NCBI GenBank assembly: GCA_021604105.1
Contig: BQIW01000041.1
Coordinates: 1-37,884, forward strand
DNA length: 37,884 nucleotides
Source: Nitrospirales bacterium
Lineage (GTDB): Bacteria > Nitrospirota > Nitrospiria > Nitrospirales > UBA8639
Reading direction: 5' to 3'
In this document: one piece after another, positions 16,132 to 28,250 of the stretch
Layout of the letters: every line of letters starts with the position of its first letter
How positions within the stretch are numbered: position 1 is the stretch's first letter
Notes under the pieces: generated by a model
What the model saw: the letters and a program-made list of their open reading frames with translations, nothing else
Told to the model about the DNA's origin: nothing
The model's database searches: none
Program-made: the position numbers and the translations under genes

Positions 16132-16160
16132 CCCCCTCTGCGAAGAAAGTGCAGAGGGGG
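16132..16160. terminator. Strong hairpin downstream of 15639-16055
   Basis: Perfect 10-bp inverted repeat: CCCCCTCTGC (16132-16141), 9-nt loop, GCAGAGGGGG (16151-16160). There is no T-tract on the exit side of either strand, so it is not a textbook intrinsic terminator. It is 76 bp past a stop codon and may stabilise or end the transcript. Confidence 0.45.
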
Positions 16161-16311
16161 AAAACCTCCATATATTTCAATCCTCAAACCAAAAAATTTC
16201 GAAAGAGAGCCGGATTAAGCCGGTTGGGACCATGGCATGAAGGCTGAAGAAGAATTGGCAACAGTCATGGCGAAACAGCAGGCGTTGATGCACATGGCTC
16301 GAATGTGCGCA

Positions 16312-27508: not shown

Positions 27509-27918
27509 CTACCCTAGGTAGCAGATGACAGTCTCATTTCTCCAAATCAGGCTCTCTGCCCCATTGATATGTTCATTACCATTCAAGCCATCTTCTTCAG
27601 GATCAATCCAAATCTTTTCGGGAAAACCTAACGAATCTTCGCCCACACCATAGAAAAGTGCCTGGGCCGAAAGGATGTAGGTTATCCATCCAATCGTGCC
27701 ATCCCCTTCAACGATTCGATAGTGGGTCTGTTGAAAAAAGCCGCCAGCGGCGTTCTCGCCATTTTCCCGTGCTCACGTACTCAGTTTACGCTCCGCGCGT
27801 ACAATCGGCTGCGTTCTTGCCGGACGTACCCTTCGGGAAGACTCAGGGCATGCTTTTTTGAACCGACCCGGAGCCTTTGATGAGTAATCTCATCCTGCGC
27901 AAATTTGCCCTTGAACAT
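27509..27918 (-). pseudogene. Small gene split by a 146-bp inserted element
   Basis: The 5' part begins at ATG 27918 (MFKGKFAQDEITHQRL) and runs into the element at 27869. The 3' part resumes at 27723 (HYRIVEGDGTIGWITYILSA, QALFYGVGEDSLGFPEKIWI, DPEEDGLNGNEHINGAESLI, WRNETVICYLG) and stops at 27509. As it stands the two parts are in different frames and the element brings a stop. Removing 27724-27869 exactly (146 bp, remainder 2 modulo 3) joins them as ...THQRL-HYRIVEG... in one 87-aa frame. No family recognised for the restored protein. Confidence 0.75.
27724..27869. mobile_element. MITE-like element with terminal inverted repeats
   Basis: 146 bp. The left end reads GGGTCTGTTGAAAAAAGC (27724-27741); the right end, reverse-complemented, reads GGGTCGGTTCAAAAAAGC (27852-27869), 16 of 18 matching. 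Inside are short hairpins such as GCCGC-CA-GCGGC at 27740. It has no coding capacity and sits inside a gene whose frame is restored by its removal. No flanking target duplication is evident. Similar Nitrospira intergenic repeats come to mind, from memory only. Confidence 0.7.
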
Positions 27919-27923
27919 CCTTA

Positions 27924-28250
27924 TTATTCAACACTCCCATAGTGCATATCCAAGGCCTCAGGAAGGGATTCCTGTAGTCCAGGAATCACCATCAACACTC
28001 TATGCACACTGACATGCAGAGCGCGTTCCTGCTCCGTTTCCGGATACCGGATGGCCATCATGCCATTGGGAAGAAGGGTATTTTGGGTGAAGGTCGTAAC
28101 CTGAAACGCTGAAGGATTGAGTGAAGAATCACACGAACACGTTGTAGGGGGGAAGAAATCAGGAAAATAGGTGAGAACCCAAAGACCGCAAAGATCAGTG
28201 GACCAGCTCTGAAGCCTCCCATCGGATACCTCCTGCTCGGGAATCTTCAC
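27924..28250 (-). CDS. Hypothetical protein, possibly frameshifted at its 5' end
   Basis: 108 aa with a GTG start at 28250 and no ribosome site. It has plausible sequence such as STDLCGLWVLTYFPDFFPP and FQVTTFTQNTLLPNGMMAIR. A second frame (28195-28410) upstream on the same strand also reads protein-like (HLPGHDLPVFVRFLHDCSDV) and overlaps it near 28250-28270, so both may be parts of one gene broken by a frameshift. The stop is 5 bp before the start of the element-split gene at 27918, so the two were probably one operon. Function unknown. Confidence 0.4.
   Translation of the reverse strand: MKIPEQEVSDGRLQSWSTDLCGLWVLTYFPDFFPPTTCSCDSSLNPSAFQVTTFTQNTLLPNGMMAIRYPETEQERALHVSVHRVLMVIPGLQESLPEALDMHYGSVE

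Follow-up and report, generated by a model that had tools for sequence, protein, structure and literature searches.

A high-copy 215-bp MITE in a small gene of a Nitrospirales bacterium and its likely source insertion sequence

Introduction

Bacterial MITEs derived from insertion sequences (IS) are short and non-coding, have terminal inverted repeats and a target-site duplication, reach high copy number and have ends in common with an autonomous IS. The element described here is like them in each of these respects. It is unlike bacterial MITEs in general in that its core is closed by an internal end-like repeat and is followed by an exchangeable tail on which the real right end lies, and in that the family has optional 24-bp modules. 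TIMEs are Tn3-derived, non-autonomous, hairpin-forming elements of 262 bp with AT-rich duplications of 5-6 bp; their Tn3 inverted repeats are 38 bp long, and as a rule they occur in a single copy (PMC4133298). The present family is also non-autonomous, with AT-rich duplications, hairpins and a similar size, but it has shared ends of ~12 bp and ~140 copies compared with the 38-bp repeats and single copy of TIMEs. REP and REPIN intergenic repeats resemble it in being palindromic, present in many copies and mostly intergenic. REPs are not known to have 5-bp duplications and DDE-type ends, whereas the present family has both, and the 5-bp duplications argue against its membership in the REP/REPIN class, which is linked to a RAYT (Y1) transposase.

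The window analyzed in this study is a stretch of 37,884 nucleotides from a Nitrospirales bacterium (contig BQIW01000041.1), in which an initial annotation had described a MITE-like element of 146 bp splitting a small gene. With high confidence, we interpret it as a high-copy, non-autonomous MITE of Nitrospirales, 215 bp in length (27724-27938), that lies in a small gene with 5 bp (ATAGT) duplicated and is related to an IS5/IS1182-like element. A search of the open literature on Nitrospira MITEs and on the end sequence gave no relevant match, and this abundant MITE family in nitrifier-type bacteria seems to be undescribed so far. Here the family is delimited to the base level and its likely source IS is named.

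Extent and structure of the element

Thirty genomic copies were aligned together with their flanks. The left flank was unique, differing in each copy. To the right of 27869, where the initial annotation had placed the end of the element, the same 69 bp was found in every aligned copy with enough contig, and unique flank began only past this tail. The element therefore extends from 27724 to 27938, a total of 215 bp. There is no target-site duplication around the 146-bp unit, while the 215-bp unit is flanked by ATAGT on both sides. The features of the element are as follows.

27724-27938, plus strand: complete MITE, true extent 215 bp (multicopy alignment with unique flanks beyond these bounds; empty sites in nine related genomes)
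27719-27723, no strand: left copy of the 5-bp target-site duplication, ATAGT
27939-27943, no strand: right copy of the 5-bp target-site duplication, ATAGT
27724-27759, plus strand: left end, GGGTCTGTTGAAAAAAGCCGCCAGCGGCGTTCTCGC, identical at 28 of 36 positions to the 3′ end of the candidate autonomous IS
27915-27938, minus strand: right end, GGGAGTGTTGAATAATAAGGATGT in the minus-strand reading, identical at 19-20 of 24 positions to the transposase-start end of the IS
27724-27869, plus strand: core domain, the 146-bp unit first annotated, an independent element in no copy examined
27852-27869, minus strand: inverted end-like repeat inside the element, matching the left end at 16 of 18 positions and followed by conserved repeat, not by unique flank
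27829-27852, plus strand: optional 24-bp module, of which 0, 1 or 2 inserts give the 191-, 215- and 239-bp classes
27870-27938, plus strand: 69-bp tail with the true right end, in which the spurious peptide MFKGKFAQDEITHQRL is read from the minus strand

The tail in the window, GGAGCCTTTGATGAG...TTATTATTCAACACTCCC, recurs in the aligned copies as GGAGCCTTTGATGAG(T/G)AATCTCATCCTGCGCAAATTTGCCCTTGAACATCCTTATTATTCAACACTCCC, with small deletions in a few of them. The end sequences of the MITE are GGGTCTGTTGAAAAAAGCC and GGGAGTGTTGAATAATAAGG. The terminal inverted repeats of the 215-bp element, GGGTCTGTTGAA and GGGAGTGTTGAA, match at 10 of 12 positions, and the similarity between the two ends fades after about 12-16 bp. 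The inverted repeat of 16/18 reported earlier does exist, with GGGTCTGTTGAAAAAAGC at 27724-27741 and its complement at 27852-27869; judged from the aligned copies, however, what lies at the 146-bp boundary is the left end repeated internally in inverted orientation, which was mistaken for the right terminus. Self-complementarity, noted at the same time as internal hairpins, is strong (DNA fold z = -3.0 versus shuffled sequence), and the absence of significant coding was confirmed: six-frame translation of the 215 bp yielded only short, meaningless frames. An Rfam scan of the region gave nothing above noise.

Copies, target sites and distribution

Further copies, which had been suggested as a check, were sought in the element's own genome, a fragmented MAG of 4.9 Mb in 217 contigs that is 96.4% complete. 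The 146-bp unit gave at least 40 scored copies (186 candidates) and the 69-bp tail 40 scored copies of 148 candidates. Since 137 + 145 matches to the end patterns were obtained versus 0 for a reversed-pattern control, the genome contains about 140 elements, dispersed and with fixed ends. The top copies are 92-96% identical across the whole unit. Using strict anchoring, a perfect 5-bp duplication was found in 36 of 69 copies and in 0 for each of six shifted controls. A broader count gave perfect duplications for 51 of the 94 copies examined in this genome, and the complete genome of a congener (G011) gave 23 of 34; the A+T fraction of the targets in these two genomes was 0.76-0.77. About half of the copies are without a perfect duplication, presumably as a result of decay or recombination. 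Element lengths cluster at 191, 215 and 239 bp, apart by the 24-bp modules. The module, of the CCCTTCGGGAAGACTCAGGGCATG type, occupies 27829-27852 and the equivalent place in other copies, and within the examined DNA of the own genome its motif is confined to copies of the element.

Individual copies showed further variation. An internal deletion derivative of 87 bp (L133/L182, G011:C1, about 16134-16220) has kept a perfect duplication, CTTGT. Past the core of a minus-strand copy starting at 2966 (L179), the tail is broken by unrelated sequence starting CACCTCTAAAAACCCCTGAC, which resembles the ends of another IS found in L128, L230 and L235. Several contigs of the MAG end in or beside copies (L003, L011, L056, L095 and others), so the repeat probably breaks this assembly. 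Such repeats probably contribute to the fragmentation of Nitrospira MAGs and to broken gene calls.

The element or its core is present in 36 of 41 genomes, including that of the window. In a survey of the phylum, 62 of 197 genomes gave matches, all in the same order except for one weak match, and by these searches the family appears to be confined to the order, that match aside. The left ~36 nt of the MITE is 91-97% conserved across the order, even in another family. In a sister subfamily the 122-bp core is shared but is followed by a tail of another sequence, which ends AATATTCAACAGTCCC and is closer to the IS end (loci L144, L161, L166, L167 and L061); some of its copies have a duplication beyond the core, TTAAT in L167 and CTGCA in L061. 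A '122-bp simple element', GGGAGTGTTGAAAAA...TTTTTGAACACTCC, was considered and rejected, as the conserved tail ending AATATTCAACAGTCCC follows it and the duplication lies beyond this tail. One speculative reading, to which we give little credence, is that a conserved core with an internal 'spare' end is kept while the tails with the working right end are swapped, and that the core has persisted across the order for so long that some copies now act as host regulatory or structural hairpins.

Only 7 of 52 insertion sites fall within ORFs of at least 120 aa, compared with 66% of random points. The sites are thus mostly outside ORFs, and the gene-breaking copy in the window is an exception. Together with the strong folding (z -3.0) and the persistence across the order, this distribution would suit an element that was once mobile and whose present copy number and avoidance of genes now reflect a REP-like host role in transcription termination, mRNA stability or DNA structure. 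We consider such a role unlikely: the avoidance of genes follows from purifying selection against their disruption, the frequent intact duplications show transposition, and the copy in the window breaks a gene.

Candidate source insertion sequence

The mobilizing transposase is absent from the window, as the initial annotation had stated. Transposase searches by family revealed an IS with GGGACTGTTGAA at both ends in G017. When the genus was searched at the protein level, the transposase proved to be intact in G002, G014 and G017, and decayed remains were seen in the window's own genome (G000), G004, G011 and G019. A transposase with matching ends, as the initial annotation had proposed to look for, is present in IS of congeners, with similar rather than identical ends, while in the own genome it is represented by a decayed relic with 38-56% identity and stop codons (C1:4367-4880). 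No intact autonomous IS was found in the 217 contigs of the own genome; one could be missing from the data because the assembly is fragmented and 96.4% complete. PF01609-type transposases in five genomes included none with matching ends. A search for larger elements with both ends, covering 20 loci in the own genome, 30 in G011 and 7 in G019, gave miniature elements only.

In the G002 copy (L244), the IS is 1228 bp long, encodes a transposase of 352 aa and is flanked by TATAG on both sides. Its 3′ end agrees with the left end of the MITE at 28 of 36 positions, and its transposase-start end agrees with the right end at 19 of 24 (19-20 of 24 for the autonomous element in general). When nine IS loci were compared with the MITE, its left end matched best at the 3′ end of the IS and its right end at the 5′ end. 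The ends are similar but not identical, usually differing at one of the outermost 12 positions, and the body of the IS is unrelated internally to that of the MITE. The IS of Nitrospira relatives (L244, L243, L236, L273 and L294) are thus like the MITE in their termini, which match end for end, and in the 5-bp duplication seen in several copies; they are unlike it in their length of 1.22 kb, their DDE transposase of 339-363 aa where intact, and their interior. More distant relatives of the IS, with GGG-NCTGTTGA ends and 5-bp duplications, were found in Nitrospira, Simkaniaceae, Neisseriaceae and others.

The transposase of the IS contains the domains DUF772 and DDE_Tnp_1. It scored 122-156 bits over part of the NCBIfam model for IS1182 (NF033551, cut-off 270) and 106-136 bits with that for IS5 (NF033581), which is near the cut-off of 140. 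As the scores are below both cut-offs, the IS is termed only IS5/IS1182-like. This 1.22-kb IS, intact in three congeners, is the likely driver of the MITE. The extent, multiplicity, duplication and empty site of the MITE, and its match at both ends to the congeneric 1.22-kb IS, are established at the level of sequence, and there is good support for its derivation, as a non-autonomous element, from an IS5/IS1182-like one. We infer that transposition occurs in trans: the IS transposase would bind the GGGNNTGTTGAA-type ends of the MITE and move it by a DDE mechanism, leaving the 5-bp duplication. The MITE may have originated from the IS by deletion or replacement, with about 36 bp retained from one end and about 20-24 bp from the opposite end. 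Its spread in this lineage may since have ceased, because the only trace of the transposase found in this incomplete genome is a decayed relic.

Mobilization by a Tn3-family transposase, as for TIMEs, is very improbable. The 5-bp AT-rich duplication and the GGG terminus are reminiscent of Tn3-derived TIMEs (PMC4133298), but there are no 38-bp Tn3-type terminal inverted repeats, the ends have only about 12 bp in common, and the ends of the IS5/IS1182-like element match far better. Neither the own genome nor the copy-rich G011 contains a Tn3 transposase. Among twelve genomes searched for Tn3 transposases (PF01526), these were absent from the copy-rich ones, and the ends of those found did not match. 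The absence of Tn3 from copy-rich genomes largely refutes this route.

The interrupted gene and empty sites

The two parts of the interrupted gene lie on either side of the duplicated ATAGT.

27944-28250, minus strand: upstream part of the gene, ending ...GLQESLPEALDM, with 74-87% protein identity to the closest congeners
27509-27723, minus strand: downstream part, from HYRIVEGDGTIGWITYILSA... to the stop (empty-site and locus alignments)

When the 215 bp and a single ATAGT are excised, the ORF that ends ...GLQESLPEALDM runs on into HYRIVEGDGTIGWITYILSA...; the protein junction then reads ...QESLPEALDM followed by HYRIVEGDGTIGW.... An empty site is present in nine related genomes (eight congeners and one genome of the same family); it aligns without a gap over 191-200 nt and contains a single ACTAT. 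When the insert was removed in silico, DNA identity to related loci was up to 92% over ~555 bp; when it was left in, the same loci matched as two separate blocks. By these alignments a small gene is disrupted by the MITE, as first proposed, with ends and an upstream half that differ from those given at the time; the boundaries stated then fail the refuting condition that the initial annotation had itself set.

The initial annotation had restored an 87-aa protein by deleting exactly 146 bp. Both peptides that it quoted are on the minus strand and the deletion does join them in frame, but the agreement is arithmetic only and does not restore the gene. The supposed upstream half, MFKGKFAQDEITHQRL, is the minus-strand reading of the element tail and is encoded genome-wide, so the 87-aa joined ORF is, on this evidence, coincidental. 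An uninterrupted homologue had been called for as a check; the intact gene of relatives reads ...QESLPEASDM-HYRIVEG with no trace of MFKGKFAQDEITHQRL, and the 87-aa join is unsupported. There is next to no chance that the element is exactly 146 bp (27724-27869) and that the gene product contains MFKGKFAQDEITHQRL-HYRIVEG. In favor of this are the 16/18 inverted repeat at both ends and the in-frame join, but the aligned copies repeat the following 69 bp and end 69 bp past 27869, the unit has no duplication around it, and the empty sites refute it. The ends of an element are poorly established by an in-frame join alone, and firmly so by multicopy alignment, duplications and empty sites.

At the best-aligned loci, the homologues in congeners are mostly open frames of 157-163 aa with a signal-peptide-like stretch; the G011 homologue matched no family in Pfam or NCBIfam. 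Besides the insertion, the gene in the window (27509-28250, minus strand) differs from the G011 and G019 homologues by 1-nt and 2-nt indels. The 1-nt indel is also present in G004, and the gene may therefore have been altered already before the MITE inserted.
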